Shown: positions 34,277 through 42,043 of the stretch, piece by piece
How positions within the stretch are numbered: the first letter of the stretch is position 1
How the letters are laid out: the number at the start of each line of letters is the position of its first letter
Source: Microbacterium faecale
GTDB lineage: Bacteria; Actinomycetota; Actinomycetes; Actinomycetales; Microbacteriaceae
Assembly: GCF_014640975.1 (NCBI RefSeq)
Contig: NZ_BMHO01000001.1
Location: 568,166-632,165, forward strand
Direction of reading: 5' to 3'
DNA: 64,000 nucleotides
Notes under the pieces: model-generated
What the model saw: only the letters and a program-made list of their open reading frames with translations
The model's database searches: none
Told to the model about the DNA's origin: nothing
Made by a program: the position numbers and the translations under genes

Positions 34277-34351
34277 GGGGGCTCCAAGTGGTAATCTGGG
34301 CGGGGATTGCACCACGCGGTCCGTAAACCTCAGATGTTCGGAGAAGAATTC

Positions 34352-35191
34352 ATGCGACTTGCGCGACGCGGCGCACCGGGCGCGGAGAAGCCCGTTGTTC
34401 TCGAGGGCGACCAGGCCTTCGACCTGACCCCGCTCACCACCGATATCGATGGCGACTTCCTCGAATCGGGCGGAATCGAGCGCGTGCGTGAGGCCCTCGC
34501 CGCCGGATCGCTCCCCGTCGCCGACATAGACGGCACGCGCGTCGGCGCCCCCGTCGCGCGCCCGAGCGCCGTCTACTGCGTCGGCATGAACTACGCGGCG
34601 CACGCCGCCGAATCCGGATCCGCGCCGCCCGAGAACCTCGTGCTGTTCATGAAGGCTCCCAACACCGTGGTCGGACCGTTCGACGACGTGCAGATCCCGC
34701 GCTCGAGCTCGAAGACCGACTGGGAGGTCGAACTCGCCATCGTCATCGGCAAGCGGGCGAGCTACCTCGACAGCCGGGAGCAGTCGATCGACCACATCGC
34801 CGGCTTCACGATCGCGAACGACCTGTCAGAGCGCACGTGGCAGCTCGAGACGTCTGGCGGGCAGTGGGGCAAGGGCAAGTCGGCGCCCGGCTTCTCGCCC
34901 CTTGGCCCCGAGCTCGTCACCCCGGACGAGGTCGACGTGTCGGACCTGCGGCTGCGCAGCTTCGTCAACGGTGAGCCGCGACAGGACTCGCGCACCTCCG
35001 ACCTCATCTTCGACGTGCCCTACATCGTGTGGCATCTCTCGCAGCACCTCACTCTCGAGCCGGGTGACGTGATCATGACAGGCACGCCGGAGGGTGTCGC
35101 CCTCTCGGGTCGCTTCCCCTACCTGAAGGCCGGCGACGTCGTCGAGCTCGACATCGAGGGCCTCGGATCCCAGAAGCAGGTGTTCGCGTGA
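34352..35191 (+). CDS. Fumarylacetoacetate hydrolase family protein (2,4-diketo-3-deoxy-L-fuconate hydrolase-like)
   Basis: This 279-residue FAH-fold enzyme has the metal site in KTDWEVELAIVIGKRA near residues 118-133, the conserved FTIANDLSER near 154, and VIMTGTPEGVALS near 240. Members with this architecture cleave beta-diketo acids. With an SDR that can oxidise 2-keto-3-deoxy-L-fuconate next door and a fuconate dehydratase in the cluster, the best fit is the hydrolase that splits 2,4-diketo-3-deoxy-fuconate to pyruvate and lactate. GGAGAAG precedes the ATG at 34352. The 3' end overlaps the SDR start (GTGA). Confidence 0.85.
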   Translation: MRLARRGAPGAEKPVVLEGDQAFDLTPLTTDIDGDFLESGGIERVREALAAGSLPVADIDGTRVGAPVARPSAVYCVGMNYAAHAAESGSAPPENLVLFMKAPNTVVGPFDDVQIPRSSSKTDWEVELAIVIGKRASYLDSREQSIDHIAGFTIANDLSERTWQLETSGGQWGKGKSAPGFSPLGPELVTPDEVDVSDLRLRSFVNGEPRQDSRTSDLIFDVPYIVWHLSQHLTLEPGDVIMTGTPEGVALSGRFPYLKAGDVVELDIEGLGSQKQVFA

Positions 35192-35940
35192 GCGCTGGCG
35201 GAACGTTCGACGGGCTGAAGGCGATCGTCACCGGCGGCGCGAGCGGGATCGGCGCGGCCATCGTCGAGCGCCTGCGCGCAGAGGGTGCGCAGGTCGCGAT
35301 CTTCGACCGCGAGGTGACCGACGGTCTCGTCGACGCTTACCGTGTGGACGTCACCGATGACCGCACCGTCCGCGAGGGCGTGGCCGCGGTCGCGGAGGAC
35401 TTCGGCGGCATCGACATCGTTGTGAACAACGCCGGCATCGGTGCGCAGGGCACGATCGAGGACAACGACGACGATGAGTGGCACCGCGTCTACGATGTGA
35501 ACGTCGTTGGGGCCGTGCGCGTCTCGCGTGCCGCCCTGCCGCACCTGCGTCAGTCTGCAGCGGCATCGATCGTCAACACGTGCTCGATCGCGGCGACCGC
35601 GGGCCTTCCCGCGCGCGCCCTTTACGGGGCGACGAAGGGCGCGGTTCTGTCGCTGACCCAGCAGATGGCGGCTGATCACCTGCGCGAGGGGATCCGCGTG
35701 AACTGCGTGAACCCCGGAACCGCCGACACACCATGGGTGGGGCGGCTGCTCGACTCGGCTCCGGATCCCGACGCAGAGCGCACGGCGCTCAACGCGCGCC
35801 AGCCGCACGGGCGGCTCGTGCGGGCGGACGAGGTGGCCGACGCGGTCGCGTACCTCGCGAGCCCGCGGGCCGGATCCACGACCGGAACCTCGCTCGCCGT
35901 CGACGGCGGCATGCAGGGCCTGCGCCTGCGTCCGGAGTAG
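35188..35940 (+). CDS. SDR family dehydrogenase (2-keto-3-deoxy-L-fuconate dehydrogenase-like)
   Basis: This 250-residue classical SDR has the cofactor loop TGGASGIGAAIV near residues 13-24, NNAGIGAQG near 82, a catalytic Ser in CSIAATAG near 132, and Tyr-x-x-x-Lys as YGATKGA near 145. It is tightly coupled to the FAH hydrolase by a 4-bp overlap. In non-phosphorylating L-fucose breakdown an SDR oxidises 2-keto-3-deoxy-L-fuconate at C4 with NAD+, giving the FAH substrate. This assignment is by context; SDR sequence alone does not fix the substrate. Confidence 0.87.
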   Translation: MSAGGTFDGLKAIVTGGASGIGAAIVERLRAEGAQVAIFDREVTDGLVDAYRVDVTDDRTVREGVAAVAEDFGGIDIVVNNAGIGAQGTIEDNDDDEWHRVYDVNVVGAVRVSRAALPHLRQSAAASIVNTCSIAATAGLPARALYGATKGAVLSLTQQMAADHLREGIRVNCVNPGTADTPWVGRLLDSAPDPDAERTALNARQPHGRLVRADEVADAVAYLASPRAGSTTGTSLAVDGGMQGLRLRPE

Positions 35941-35954
35941 TCCGCGCGGGAACG

Positions 35955-36011
35955 TGGGTCGCCAGAGTTTGCGGGCGCGCGTGCCGCGTCGCCGCAAACT
36001 TTGGCGACCCA
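35955..36011. repeat. R2 palindromic repeat, copy 4 (57 bp)
   Basis: Arms TGGGTCGCCAGAGTTTGC and GCAAACTTTGGCGACCCA pair over 18 bp with one mismatch. It lies between the convergent SDR (plus) and aldo/keto reductase (minus) genes and could be a bidirectional terminator. Confidence 0.83.
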
Positions 36012-36035
36012 GCGCGTGAGACCAGCGCGTGGGGA

Positions 36036-37010
36036 CTACGCGATGAGCGACTCGGCGGCGAGCTCCGCCCAGAGATCCTCGGGGATCTCCAGGCGCATCC
36101 ACTCGGCGTTCTGGCGGATCTGCGCGGCGCGGCTGCTGCCGGTCACGACCGTGCGCACTGTGGAGATGCGCGTCGTGTACTGCAGCGCCGCCGCCGGCAG
36201 CGGAACACCGTAGGAGCGGCAGACGTCGGCGATGCGGGTCGCCCGGTCGACGAGCTCCCGCGGCGCCTGGCCGTAGTCGTAGCGTGGATTGTCGGCGGGT
36301 TGGTCGCTTGCGAGCAGGCCCGAGTTGAACACCGACGCCGTCACGATGCCCGTCCCCGTGCGCTCGCAGGCCGGAACCGTGTCGGCGAGCGCCGGCTGCT
36401 CGAGCAGTGTGAGCCGACCCGCGACCATCAGGACGTCCAGCCCGCCCGATGCCGCGCCGAGCGCGAGCGCTCCCGCGTCCATGGATCCGAGCCCGGACGC
36501 CCGGACGACACCCTCGCGTTTCAGATCCGCGAGCGCGGCCGTTCCCGACGCGAGGTGGCGTTCGAGATCGCCGGACTGCTCGGGATCGTGCAGGTAGACG
36601 AGGTCGATCGACGTCAGGCCGAGCCGCTCGAGCGACTCCTCGATCGACCGGCGCACGCCGTCCGCGGAAAAGTCCCACTGCCGCTTGACGACGGTGGGCA
36701 CGTGGTAGAAATTCTCGACGTCGAGCTGGTTCTCACCGCCGGGGTTGGGCACGAGCAGCCGCCCGGCCTTCGTCGAGAGAACGAACTCGTCGCGAGGCTT
36801 CGTGCGGAGGAACGCGCCGAGCCGTCGCTCCGAGAGGCCGAGGCCGTAGTGCGGGGCGGTGTCGAAGTAGCGCACGCCGGCGTCCCACGCGGCCTCCAGT
36901 ACGGCAAGCGCGTCGTCATCGGTCACCGGGCGATTCAGGTTGCCGATTCCCGCGGCGCCGAAACCGAACGATGGCAACGCCAGGTCGCTTCGGCGAGAGA
37001 CCTCACCCAC
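36036..37010 (-). CDS. Aldo/keto reductase (L-fucose/D-threo-aldose 1-dehydrogenase-like)
   Basis: This 324-residue TIM-barrel AKR has the catalytic tetrad as Asp and Tyr in [20 protein letters not shown] near residues 47-66, Lys in LSTKAGRLL near 80, and His in VYLHDPEQ near 140. The opening [18 protein letters not shown] and the D-T-A-P-H-Y-G-x-G-x-S-E pattern resemble the galactose/L-fucose dehydrogenase group. It would oxidise L-fucose to its lactone, the first pathway step. GTG at 37010 overlaps the stop of the dehydratase gene by 8 bp, so the two form an operon. Confidence 0.88.
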
Positions 37011-38283
37011 GGAAGGTGTACTCCTCCCGGCTCGCCGCCAGCATCTCCATGCCGTTGCCCGGGGCGGTGGGCGCGTGGTAGACGCCGCCGCTCACGTCGG
37101 TGGGCGTCACGAAGTGCTCGTGGAGGTGATCGACGTACTCGATCACCCGACCTTCCGTCGTGCCGGTGACGGCGATGAAGTCGAACATCGACAGGTGCTG
37201 CACGGCCTCGCAGAGTCCGACGCCGCCTGCGTGGGGACAGACCGGAACGCCGAACTTCGCCGCCAGCAACAGAATCGCGATGTTCTCGTTCACACCGGCG
37301 ACCCGAGTCGCGTCGATCTGCAGCACGCTCAGCGCATTCGCCTGCAGCAGCTGCTTGAACATCACGCGACCGCCGCAGTGCTCGCCGGTCGCCACCGGGA
37401 TCGGCGCCACGCCCTTCGCGATCGCCGCGTGGGCGAGGATGTCGTCCGGGTTCGTCGGTTCTTCGATCCAGGCGATGTCGAACTCGGAGAGGCGCCCCAT
37501 CCACTCGATCGCCTCGTCGACGCCCCATCGCTGGTTCGCGTCCGTGCCGATGCGGATGTCGGGTCCGACGGTCTCACGCGCGAGGCGCATACGTCGGATG
37601 TCATCGTCGACGTCACCGCCGACCTTGAGCTTGATCATGCGGAACCCGTCCGCCACGGCCTCGCGGCACAAGCGCGCGAGCTTCTCGTCCGAGTAGCCGA
37701 GCCAGCCGGGCGTGGTCGTGTACGCGGGATAACCGTGCTCGAGCAACTCGGCCTCGCGCGTGGCGCGGCCCGGCTCGGCAGCACGCAGGATCTGGAGTGC
37801 GTCATCGCGCGTGAGCGCGTCGGTGAGATAGCGGAAGTCGATCAGATCGACGATCTCCTCCGGGCTCATCCGCGCGAGCAGGCGCCACAGCGGAAGACTG
37901 GCGCGCTTCGCCTTCAGGTCCCACATGGCGTTGACGACGGCGCCGATCGCCATGTGCATGACGCCCTTCTCCGGTCCGAGCCAGCGCAACTGCGAGTCGC
38001 CGACGAGTCCGCGCCAGAAGGATCCCATGTCGTCGAGGATCGCCTCCACGTCGCGCCCGACAAGATGCGGCGAGAGGGCGCGGATGGCGGCAGTCTGAAT
38101 GTCGTTGCCGCGCCCGATCGTGAAGACGAAGCCGTGGCCGGAGTGCCCGTCGTCCGCATCGGTGGTGATCTCGACGTATGCCGCCGAGTAGTCGGGGTCG
38201 GCGTTCATCGCATCGGAGCCGTCCAGCTGCTCGGATGTCGGGAAGCGGATGTCGACGGTGTCGACGGTGACGATCGTGCTCAC
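37003..38283 (-). CDS. L-fuconate dehydratase (enolase superfamily)
   Basis: This 426-residue enzyme belongs to the mandelate racemase/muconate lactonizing branch. The Lys-x-Lys base motif is [13 protein letters not shown] near residues 205-217. The metal ligands follow as [15 protein letters not shown] and a GEHCGG segment, with the acid/base His in [11 protein letters not shown]. Length and N-terminal [16 protein letters not shown] agree with the L-fuconate dehydratase family. It converts L-fuconate to 2-keto-3-deoxy-L-fuconate. GTG at 38283 follows GAGGAG and puts the start just downstream of the perfect operator at 38313. Confidence 0.93.
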
Positions 38284-38312
38284 GTGATCTCCTCGGGTTC
38301 TTGTTACAGCGT

Positions 38313-38327
38313 AGACATCCGATGTCT
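38313..38327. promoter_or_regulatory. Operator copy 3 of the fuconate-type regulon (perfect palindrome)
   Basis: AGACATCCGATGTCT has perfect 6-bp half-sites around CCG. It lies 30 bp upstream of the fuconate dehydratase start and is the best of three copies, which helps define the motif AGACAT-n3-ATGTCT. Confidence 0.75.
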
Positions 38328-38363
38328 GTGCGGTCAATCGCGCGACGGGTAACCTTACGAGCG

Positions 38364-39818
38364 ATGAGGATCACACGTCGCACGATGCTGTTGGGCGCGG
38401 GGGCTGGGGCGCTCACCGTCTTGCTGGCGTCGTGCACGCCGACTCCGGCCCCTCCGCCGGAGGAGACGCCCACGCGCGAGCCCACCGTCACGCCGACGCC
38501 TGTGGGGGAGATTCCCGCGGCGGCGGCGTACTTCCGCACGGCGTGGACCACGGATCCCTACGCCTACGGCGCGCGCAGCGTGACGCCCGTGGGTGCGACG
38601 ACCGCTGACCGCGAGACGCTTGCGAACCCGCTCGGCAACCGCGTGTTCTTCGCGGGCGAGGCGACCAGCCAATCGGCGCCCGGCACGATCCGCGGTGCCG
38701 TCGAGTCGGGTGAGCGCGCCGCGCGCGAGGTCTCCGAGGCGATGGGCGAAGGCGAGCGGGTGGCCGTCGTCGGCGCCGGCGCGGCCGGAGCGACCGCGGC
38801 GCGCAGCCTCCTGGAAGCGGGTATCGACGTCACGGTTCTCGAGGCGCGTGATCGCGCCGGCGGCCGTCTGGCGACGCACGATAGCGACGACTGGCCCGTG
38901 CCGCCCCAGGCGGGCGCGTGGCTGCTCGGATCCGACGACACCGAGACGGCATCGCGGATGGCGCTGCTCGGAGTCGGCTCCGTGGCCGTCTCCGGCGTCG
39001 CGGGATTCTCGCGCGACGGCGAGGTCGCGCCCCCGTCGGGGGAGGACATCGCGAGCGCGATCGCCGATGTGAGGGCCGCGTCCTCCGATGTTTCCCTGGC
39101 CGACGCGATGGCAGAGGCGGGCCTCGCCGACTCTGACGAGCACGACGCATTCGTCGCGAGCCTGTCGGCGATGACGGGCATCGATCCCGCCACGGCCTCC
39201 AGCTGGTACGCGCCGACCCTGCCCGACGGATCCTTTGACGCGCTCGCGAGCGACGTGGCACCGTTCGTCGAGGCGCCGCTCGGCGACCTCGACGTGACGT
39301 ACTCGACCACCGTCTCGAACGTCGTCCACGACGATTCCGGCGTGAGCCTGCGCCTGGCGGGCGGCGAGGCGCTGACTTACGACCGCGTGATCGTCACCGT
39401 GCCGCTCGGCGTGCTCAAGGCGGGCGCGATCGAGTTCGACCCGCCGCTGTCTTTTGCCCATCGCGGTGCGATCTCCGCACTCGAGATGGGCGCGATCGAG
39501 TCGATCTGGCTGCGGTACGACGCGCCGTTCTGGGCGACGTCGGCGGCGATCTGGCACGTCGTCGGCCCCGCGCGACCGACGCCGACCCCGGAGCCGACCG
39601 ACGAGGATCCTGCCGCCGAAGACGAGACCGAGGAACCGACCGATCCGACGATTCGCACCTGGATCAATCTGCTCCCGACCACGGGCGAGCCGATCCTCGT
39701 CGGCCTCGTCGGCGGCCCTGCGGCGCGCGTCGTGGCAGAGCTCGACGACGACGCACTGCTGACTCTTGCTGCGGAGTCGCTCATGCCGTTCACGGATCCG
39801 GACGCTGCCGAGGACTGA
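38364..39818 (+). CDS. Tat lipoprotein flavin amine oxidase with apparent circular permutation
   Basis: This 484-residue protein starts [20 protein letters not shown] and then LLASC, a twin-arginine signal plus lipobox (Cys24), so it is exported folded and lipid-anchored. A Pro/Thr-rich linker follows. Residues 55-125 ([17 protein letters not shown], then [20 protein letters not shown] with SGERAA) match what is normally the C-terminal FAD-binding end of monoamine oxidases. The normal N-terminal FAD motif [20 protein letters not shown] with [13 protein letters not shown] comes after it, at residues 133-170. The chain ends where the W-x-x-DP segment would usually begin. An acidic Pro/Glu-rich insert lies near residue 410. 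The substrate is unknown. It is monocistronic. Confidence 0.82.
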
Positions 39819-39962: not shown

Positions 39963-41171
39963 TCAGATGCGTGCGCCGGCGATCCGGGCACCCTCGCCGA
40001 GGGAGGCGAGCTTCGCCCACGCGATCTGCTCGTGCACGCGACCGCCGAGCCCGCAGTCGGTCGCGGCGACAACCCGCTCGGGGCCGACGATCCGCGCGAA
40101 GCGTTCGATGCGCTGGGCGACGAGCTCGGGGTGCTCCACGAGGTTCGTCGAATGGCCGACGACGCCGGGCACGAGGACGAGATCGTCGGGGATGAGGTCC
40201 TTGTTCTCCTCCCACACCGTCCACTCGTGCTCGTGGCGGGCGTTGGCGGCCTCGAAAGAGATCTGCCCGACGTTCGCGCCCAGCACCGTCTTCAGGATGT
40301 GCTTCAATTCGATGTCGGTCGCGTGCGGGCCGTGCCATGAGCCCCAGCACAGGTGCAGGCGGATCTGCTCCTTCGGGAGGCCCTTGATCGCCTCGTTGAT
40401 GGCATCGATGCGGAACTGCGTGAAGGCGTTGTAATCCTCGACCGTTGGCTCGGGCTGGATCTGGTCCCAGTTCTCGGCGAGCGACGGGTCGTCGAGCTGC
40501 AGGATGAGGCCCGCGTCGGTGATCGCCTTGTACTCCTCGCGCAGCGCGCGCGCCCAGGCCGTGATGTGCTCGTTCTCGGTCTCATAGAAGCTCGTCGTGA
40601 TGCGGGCCGCGGATCCCGGGGCGATCGCGGTGATGAATCCGCGTTCGTCGTCGCGGAGCGCGCCCGTCAGGTGCGCGACATCGCTGGCGACCTTGTCGTG
40701 CCCCGTGTAGGTGATCTCGCCCGTGTTGGTCGGGAACGCGGTGGCGTTCCGGCCGGTGCCGATGCCGGCGGAGCGGTCCGCGTACGCCTCCGCGAACAGC
40801 TCGCGATCGCGCCGGTCGAGGAACGAGGTCAGCTGAATGTTGCCCGGCGTGCTCTCGACGCGCTCATAGGTGAAGAAGGAGTTGTCGGTCAGCTCGAGTC
40901 CCGACACGCGCTGGAACGAGTAGCCCCACCAGGCGCCGTAGTCGATCGGGTTCGACATGGCCTTGCCGAACTCCCCATCTCCGGGCTGGGTGATGCCGGC
41001 GCGGCGCTGCCGCTCGACGACGTCCGTGACGGCCGCCGCGACGAGCTCGCGGTACTCCGGCGTAGAGGTGAGGGTGAAGCCGTCGTCCTCGAAGGTGCGG
41101 GCTGCGTTGGCCTCGATCAGCTGCGAAGTGCGCGGCAGGCTCCCGGCGGTGGTGGTCTCGATCCGCGTCAT
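39963..41171 (-). CDS. Cobalamin-independent methionine synthase-like protein (MetE C-terminal domain family)
   Basis: This 402-residue single-barrel protein belongs to the UROD/MetE superfamily. It starts MTRIETTTAGSLPRTSQLIE, with T-A-G-S-L-P-R typical of the family. HLCWGSWHGPH near residue 265 and ATDCGLGG near 375 supply the likely zinc-binding His and Cys. It lacks the N-terminal half of true MetE, so it may methylate homocysteine from another donor, or demethylate or transfer thiol-linked groups, as in related coenzyme M transferase-like enzymes. It overlaps the Pr6Pr gene (ATGA) and is the second gene of that pair. Confidence 0.85.
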   Translation of the reverse strand: MTRIETTTAGSLPRTSQLIEANAARTFEDDGFTLTSTPEYRELVAAAVTDVVERQRRAGITQPGDGEFGKAMSNPIDYGAWWGYSFQRVSGLELTDNSFFTYERVESTPGNIQLTSFLDRRDRELFAEAYADRSAGIGTGRNATAFPTNTGEITYTGHDKVASDVAHLTGALRDDERGFITAIAPGSAARITTSFYETENEHITAWARALREEYKAITDAGLILQLDDPSLAENWDQIQPEPTVEDYNAFTQFRIDAINEAIKGLPKEQIRLHLCWGSWHGPHATDIELKHILKTVLGANVGQISFEAANARHEHEWTVWEENKDLIPDDLVLVPGVVGHSTNLVEHPELVAQRIERFARIVGPERVVAATDCGLGGRVHEQIAWAKLASLGEGARIAGARI

Positions 41172-41881
41172 AGCATCTCCTTGGGGTGGGTGGTGATTCG
41201 ACGGTACCGAGCCGGCCACCGCCACCGCATGTCGCGTGACCTCGTGTGACTGTCCGGAACCGTCTCGCGCCAGCGGCTGAGCGCGATGAGGCCGCACGCG
41301 ACGGCGGCGAATACGGACAGCGCGATCACGCACGTGCCGAGGAACTCCGGGATCCCGGAGACCTGCCGCAGGTCGAGGAAGTAGTACGGGTACCAGCCGA
41401 TGTGCGACCCGCGCCACAAAGTGAAGACGCCCCACAGCACGGGATAGAGCAGGACGAAGGCGACGAGGCGCCAGCGCGCCGCGCGCCGGCCGGGTCCGAT
41501 GTTCCACGCGACGATGGCGATCGCCGGCAGGAGGAAGTGCAGAACGTGGTCGGACCAGGGCACGGTCATCGGGACGCCGCGCACGCCCGATTGCCATACC
41601 AGGAGCGCGAACACGAGGCCCGCCGTGATCGTCCAGCTGAGGACGACCGTGCGCGCGTCGGTGAACCACCGCGGATCCTCGTCGCGCCGCATGGCGATCG
41701 CTCCGCCGATGACGGCGATGATCGCGAACGCGATGTTGGATTGGATCGTGAGGTACGCGAAGAAGTTCTGCCCGGCGATGGTCTGGGAGCTCAGGCCCCA
41801 CAGCTGGCGGTGCACGAGGGCAACGACGCACAGCGCTGCGGCTCCGAACCGGACCGCTGCAAACCACTTCCGTGCCGTCAC
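41168..41881 (-). CDS. Pr6Pr family membrane protein
   Basis: The 237-residue protein has six predicted helices (for example FGAAALCVVALVHRQ, YLTIQSNIAFAIIAVIGGAI, VLLYPVLWGVFTLW). The pattern of FFAYLTIQSNI, WSDHVLHFLLP and GWYPYYFLD is typical of the Pr6Pr/FAR-17a-AIG1-like family. The invariant Thr and His of that fold may be in FFAYLTIQSN and DHVLHF. Family members in animals hydrolyse fatty acid esters of hydroxy fatty acids; bacterial roles are unknown. GTG at 41881 is preceded by GGAGGG. Cotranscribed with the MetE-like gene. Confidence 0.85.
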   Translation of the reverse strand: MTARKWFAAVRFGAAALCVVALVHRQLWGLSSQTIAGQNFFAYLTIQSNIAFAIIAVIGGAIAMRRDEDPRWFTDARTVVLSWTITAGLVFALLVWQSGVRGVPMTVPWSDHVLHFLLPAIAIVAWNIGPGRRAARWRLVAFVLLYPVLWGVFTLWRGSHIGWYPYYFLDLRQVSGIPEFLGTCVIALSVFAAVACGLIALSRWRETVPDSHTRSRDMRWRWPARYRRITTHPKEML

Positions 41882-41974
41882 CGACCGCCCTCCCTCTCGG
41901 CGTGCAGTCGAGTCTACGGAGTGCGCCAGCCCGCCTCCCGGCGCGCGGGGGTCGCCGCGCAGAAGGCACTTACT

Positions 41975-41997
41975 GAATATCAATCGGTATGATACTT
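41975..41997. promoter_or_regulatory. Putative operator TATCA-N7-TGATA before the amino-acid-type ABC genes
   Basis: GAATATCA, seven bases, then TGATACTT. It shares both half-sites and spacing with the perfect palindrome at 53923-53945. It lies 46 bp upstream of the binding-protein start. No obvious regulator gene for it is in the window. Confidence 0.6.
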
Positions 41998-42043
41998 TGG
42001 CGATGCGCTGCGGCGCCCCGAACACAAGGATGTGGAGATACCC

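Follow-up and report, generated by a model that had tools for sequence, protein, structure and literature searches.

Few flavoprotein folds have been studied as thoroughly as the one shared by monoamine oxidase (MAO), polyamine oxidase (PAO) and LSD1. In its usual chain order, described by the Pfam profile PF01593, a Rossmann motif that binds flavin adenine dinucleotide (FAD) comes first and a closing FAD segment comes last. This order is seen in the amine oxidase domains of LSD1/KDM1A and LSD2/KDM1B, where the closing segment is C-terminal, and likewise in maize PAO, spermine oxidase, MAO-A/B and the Thermoanaerobacterales MAO 8p84. Here we analyzed a 64,000-nucleotide stretch of the Microbacterium faecale genome (contig NZ_BMHO01000001.1, positions 568,166 to 632,165; hereafter the window), which carries on its plus strand a gene (38364..39818) for a member of this superfamily whose closing segment is N-terminal, ahead of the Rossmann motif. 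A preliminary description of the locus had pointed to the permuted order of this gene; the permutation holds, and the gene is no isolated case but a member of a widespread family.

The open reading frame (ORF) encodes a 484-residue protein without internal stop, its coordinates including the stop codon, and its PF01593 score of 169.8 bits, well over the curated cut-off of 19.8, places it in the flavin-containing amine oxidase superfamily. The moved closing segment, delimited through PDB, Pfam and BLASTP alignments (residues 49-125; 38508..38738, plus strand), is linked by a short joint to the Rossmann FAD motif, delimited through PDB and Pfam alignments (residues 130-170; 38751..38873, plus strand). 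This motif opens a core of FAD and substrate domains (residues 130-481; 38751..39806, plus strand), and the chain stops where the closing segment of MAO/LSD1-type flavoproteins would start. In the translation, W61-T-T-D-P-Y-A-Y-G69, FFAGEATS (95-102) and the 18-residue Rossmann FAD motif (133-150) lie at the positions previously described. The protein also has a Pro/Glu/Asp-rich insertion at about residues 404-430; in another permuted protein (L045) the core match is split by an Ala/Asp-rich insertion at a similar place.

Along the gene, PF01593 is matched at its positions 369-442, then 2-40, then 204-364, which departs from the usual order of the profile. The best match among PDB chains by phmmer, KDM1B (4gu0_A, E 9.2e-29), was aligned in three pieces, its residues 337-377, 534-629 and 699-773 pairing with query residues 131-171, 299-394 and 49-123; since the last piece of KDM1B pairs with the first piece of the query, the closing part stands first in the window protein. 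BLASTP against an unpermuted actinobacterial relative (L062) gave a core match (query 131-454 with 34-344, 33% identity, E 3e-33) and a separate tail match (query 44-123 with 366-438, 41% identity, E 2e-12). Maize PAO, spermine oxidase, MAO-A/B and 8p84, which share the non-adjacent FAD motifs, are also matched in tail and core as separate pieces. Among the 60 rows shown from the PDB searches, one of which was run with a 370-residue piece of L107 lacking the leader and the last residues, no best stretch spanned tail and core in the order of the query. Each part is present once and cyclically shifted, and unpermuted homologs exist; as established by sequence and conservation, the order is a circular permutation. 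No second tail match above 15 bits occurred in 384 classified entries (duplicates included) or in a further 120, and no two-tail intermediate protein was found in these same entries, 8 of 152 loci being left unclassified.

We then classified the order of relatives by separate hidden Markov models (HMMs) of tail and core. The best 120 of 1335 matches to the window protein and the best 120 of 3806 matches to a distant permuted protein (L059) were all permuted (240/240, both queries included); a regular-expression pass over the first 120 called 113 permuted and 6 undecided, and miscalled one through its leader motif. With an unpermuted query (L064; best 120 of 5704 matches), 119 were unpermuted and one (P0355) was permuted. 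This last protein is about 55% identical to both a permuted (L069) and an unpermuted (P0289) protein, and L069 comes from a genome that shares one genus code with that of the unpermuted L070. Microbacterium proteins annotated as “flavin monoamine oxidase family protein” (e.g., P0004, P0005) belong to the same permuted family, being 69% identical to the window protein with no difference in order, and their names are silent on the permutation. Overall, 324 distinct permuted proteins stand against 166 unpermuted relatives; the preliminary description had proposed to look for homologs of the same order and for unpermuted ones. Some match at E 1e-10 is present in 198 of 299 Microbacteriaceae genomes. 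By a count of listed rows, 92 of these 299 show the permuted order within a single full-length stretch, while a further seven carry two collinear stretches in one frame; within Microbacterium, the gene occurs in 8 of 18 genomes, in one of them as two stretches. A sample of the phylum yielded full-length matches in 9 of 396 genomes, four of which lie outside Microbacteriaceae.

Among named loci, 41 of the best 80 (of 502) were permuted. These include Microbacteriaceae and several unplaced Actinomycetota, Acidimicrobiia by title (Acidimicrobiales, Acidimicrobiaceae, Ilumatobacteraceae, Candidatus Microthrix) and seven alphaproteobacterial loci, among them strains of Cochlodiniinecator, Nitratireductor and Nioella. 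The cyanobacterial case is a single contig (L112) of one metagenome-assembled genome (MAG), Okeania sp. SIO1I7; it groups with the alphaproteobacterial Nitratireductor locus L107 (support 99/84), and its permuted gene may reflect transfer or contamination through a binning error. Two genes, or rearranged pieces, taken as one through faulty assembly or annotation would also give such an order at a single locus. This explanation was rejected and has next to no probability, because the order recurs throughout the listed proteins, the genomes of the family and about half of the named loci, and because both orders coexist in Agromyces fucosus, as the genes L087 and L130. The sequencing error or gene fusion that had been named beforehand as a possible undoing of the claim was not seen. 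The preliminary description knew of no permuted member, and in our literature search, conducted on titles and abstract beginnings with subscription papers mostly outside its scope, no paper came up that described a permuted amine oxidase.

AlphaFold predicted a single confident fold for the window protein (predicted local distance difference test score, pLDDT, 90.6; predicted template modeling score, pTM, 0.87). The model has the MAO/PAO/LSD1 fold, and in a sequential structure alignment its core aligns with LSD1 277-739; a common fold is therefore strongly predicted. LSD2/KDM1B and LSD1/KDM1A are its best PDB matches in sequence and structure and share its core fold and FAD motifs; they are set apart by a C-terminal closing segment, by a catalytic Lys and cage Tyr that the window protein lacks, and by the exported lipoprotein leader of the latter. 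The new chain ends would fall in the loop that precedes the closing FAD segment, with the former C-terminal helix connected to the first Rossmann strand by a short linker. The moved segment may fold back and complete the FAD site. The preliminary description had held that its claim would fail if residues 55-125 did not pack onto that site. No such failure was seen, and packing at the site is probable in view of the pLDDT and pTM scores together with a coupling signal, itself weak. In a domain-swapped dimer, the moved segment would instead complete the FAD site of its partner chain, an arrangement compatible with a prediction made for the monomer only. We consider it improbable given the high pTM for one chain and the very short joint between tail and core (median gap of 1 residue between HMM matches).

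The predicted active site of the window protein differs from that of unpermuted relatives. The catalytic Lys, part of a Lys-water-flavin arrangement, is present in all 166 unpermuted relatives and in 153 of 324 permuted proteins, and the Tyr of the aromatic cage in 165 and 144 of them, respectively. The window protein has neither, carrying Ser380 (codon at 39501..39503, plus strand) in place of the Lys and Arg71 (38574..38576, plus strand) in place of the Tyr in sequence alignments. From the aligned motifs, these positions presumably correspond to LSD1 Lys661 and Tyr761. Both residues tend to be lost together: among 323 permuted proteins, 159 have neither the Lys nor a Tyr/Phe, 140 have Lys and Tyr, and 24 are mixed, one of the latter through a gap in the truncated L067. 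Deeper permuted members keep Lys and Tyr, hence the permutation alone did not remove the catalytic residues; these were lost afterwards, within the lineage of the Microbacteriaceae. Loci of the Cryobacterium type in this family keep the Lys, mostly with Phe in place of Tyr. Unpermuted Tat-lipoprotein relatives from Actinomycetota (L062, L063, L150) have, unlike the window protein, the ordinary order together with Lys and Tyr. We also compared the 159 double-loss proteins with 141 Lys-Tyr permuted proteins, and twelve positions were conserved in at least 90% of the latter and present in less than 25% of the former (ancestral residues, in window numbering: Thr59, Tyr71, His110, His188, Tyr211, Glu270, Asp291, Gly297, Tyr298, Leu378, Asp379, and Lys380). 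Eleven of the twelve share their commonest residue with the unpermuted group, in which position 379 is Asn. Nine positions besides Lys and Tyr, conserved in both other groups, are thus changed in the Microbacteriaceae branch.

The FAD motif residues are retained in this branch, as G137, G139, and G142 of the dinucleotide-binding Rossmann motif and G166, G167, and R168 of the GGR motif are invariant in a 70-row alignment. The ratio of nonsynonymous to synonymous substitution rates (dN/dS), calculated for the core region by the Nei-Gojobori method with our own script, was 0.09-0.36 in 15 Lys-less pairs drawn from genes other than that of the window, indicating purifying selection. A decaying pseudogene was rejected on this basis. 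K661A is reported to abolish the activity of LSD1 and K300M to slow flavin reduction in maize PAO 1400-fold, and Tyr761 is reported as the cage residue of LSD1 (PMC3184146). With Lys and cage Tyr missing, the name “amine oxidase” describes the fold of the window protein's branch, and it is doubtful that these proteins oxidize amines. Permuted members that keep both residues would work as amine oxidases. Since Lys, Tyr and the nine further positions are gone and the FAD motifs are kept, an altered or non-catalytic flavin role appears the likeliest. We tentatively propose, at somewhat less than even odds, that the window protein either carries out some other flavin chemistry on the outer side of the membrane or is a non-catalytic flavoprotein, possibly together with a nearby Pr6Pr family membrane protein. 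The branch could still be an amine or related oxidase in which other residues of a rearranged active site replace Lys and Tyr. The purifying selection, the retained FAD motifs and residues conserved specifically in the branch (e.g., S328, R330, V446, L460) fit such an enzyme, whereas the constancy of the Lys in unpermuted relatives, the severe effect of its loss in LSD1 and maize PAO (PMC3184146) and the nine further changes do not, and we regard this as a possibility of roughly one in three.

Preceding the moved segment, the window protein has a leader (residues 1-24; 38364..38435, plus strand) which reads RITRRTMLL with the twin arginines R5-R6 and ends in the lipobox LLASC24, followed by a Pro/Thr-rich linker. 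C24 is invariant and R5 and R6 are nearly invariant in the 70 aligned rows. Twin Arg and lipobox patterns occur together in 180 of the 240 listed proteins. When the 75 residues ahead of the tail were examined at 93 permuted loci, 91 had “RR” and 79 a lipobox pattern, a lenient test because an ORF may start upstream of the true start; no lipobox match was found within the same distance in alphaproteobacterial members. A similar Tat/lipobox-like leader can be read in L062 and L063. The lipoprotein signal of the twin-arginine translocation (Tat) type noted previously is hence upheld as a motif, and export itself is predicted from that motif. The protein would be a Tat-exported, lipid-anchored flavoprotein of the MAO/PAO/LSD1 superfamily, with FAD presumably bound before export.

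The history of the permuted order was examined in three trees, whose deep branches lack a firm order. A quick tree, built from 113 of 370 rows that were selected by identity after removal of L067, needs four changes of order. Leaving out L108 as well (112 rows) gave three changes, and a single permuted clade was not rejected by the approximately unbiased test (p-AU 0.427). A third tree of 59 rows, without the unpermuted L070, L132, L144, L146, and L148 and the permuted L067 and L108, also needs three changes; none of its 200 bootstrap trees contains a single permuted clade, although the bootstrap had not settled. Two small unpermuted clades (L062/L150 and L071/L141) sit between permuted rows at a fork that the trees do not resolve. 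Repeated, independent origins of the permuted order at one loop are a real, if minority, prospect: the free trees and the bootstrap favor it, whereas the test on 112 rows does not reject one clade, the starred branches of the 113- and 59-row trees force only a single change, and by reading, the start of the tail and the end of the core fall at much the same position in every group.

We give a probability of about 0.88 to a permuted flavoprotein family with an amine-oxidase fold. Several points tell against this interpretation. Foldseek and VIA-align work sequentially, and their matches are confined to the core; the coupling correlation is small, and the placement of the tail on FAD is deduced from model scores. 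FAD binding, export, and activity are predictions from sequence or model, the dN/dS pairs do not include the gene of the window, and the 113- and 59-row trees do not show one origin of the permuted order.

Downstream of the permuted gene in the window lie a methionine-synthase-like gene (39963..41069, minus strand; PF01717), which is probably not part of the system, the Pr6Pr family membrane protein ORF (41168..42025, minus strand; NF038065, E 3e-27 for 41168-41959) and a gene for a solute-binding protein. The Pr6Pr gene is a conserved neighbor in Microbacteriaceae: it was found in the flank of 63 of 90 distinct permuted loci, mostly directly downstream and convergent, and all 63 belong to the 65 loci of the Microbacteriaceae lineage, counting L100, which is titled only Actinomycetota. 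The two exceptions are L094 and the window's own locus, where the gene lies beyond the 1.5 kb flank behind one other gene. None was found in the flanks of the 25 other permuted loci or of 47 unpermuted loci. Pr6Pr genes are common in Microbacteriaceae anyway (259 of 299 genomes). The Pr6Pr protein of the window has six long predicted helices, and a fold search returned no match explaining its role; it is a possible partner of the permuted flavoprotein.

As a wider scenario, which we hold with well under even confidence, the family may be an old permuted flavin amine oxidase branch of at least two phyla (Actinomycetota and Pseudomonadota, the cyanobacterial case being one MAG), undescribed in the literature searched, that kept its catalytic residues after permutation; Microbacteriaceae would then have derived a lipid-anchored flavoprotein without Lys and Tyr, acting in another redox or sensing role with the Pr6Pr membrane protein. 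Here nature offers a family whose chain is opened at a different loop, which has unpermuted sisters and which includes branches both with and without the Lys; the dependence of flavin loading, Tat export and catalysis on chain order thereby becomes directly testable. The automatic name “flavin monoamine oxidase” also covers a branch without the residues needed for activity in LSD1 and maize PAO.

Upstream of the permuted gene, the window holds genes of the FAA-hydrolase, short-chain dehydrogenase, aldo/keto reductase and enolase-superfamily types. They are clustered at 34307-38337, in an arrangement that resembles a sugar-acid or fucose-type breakdown cluster.
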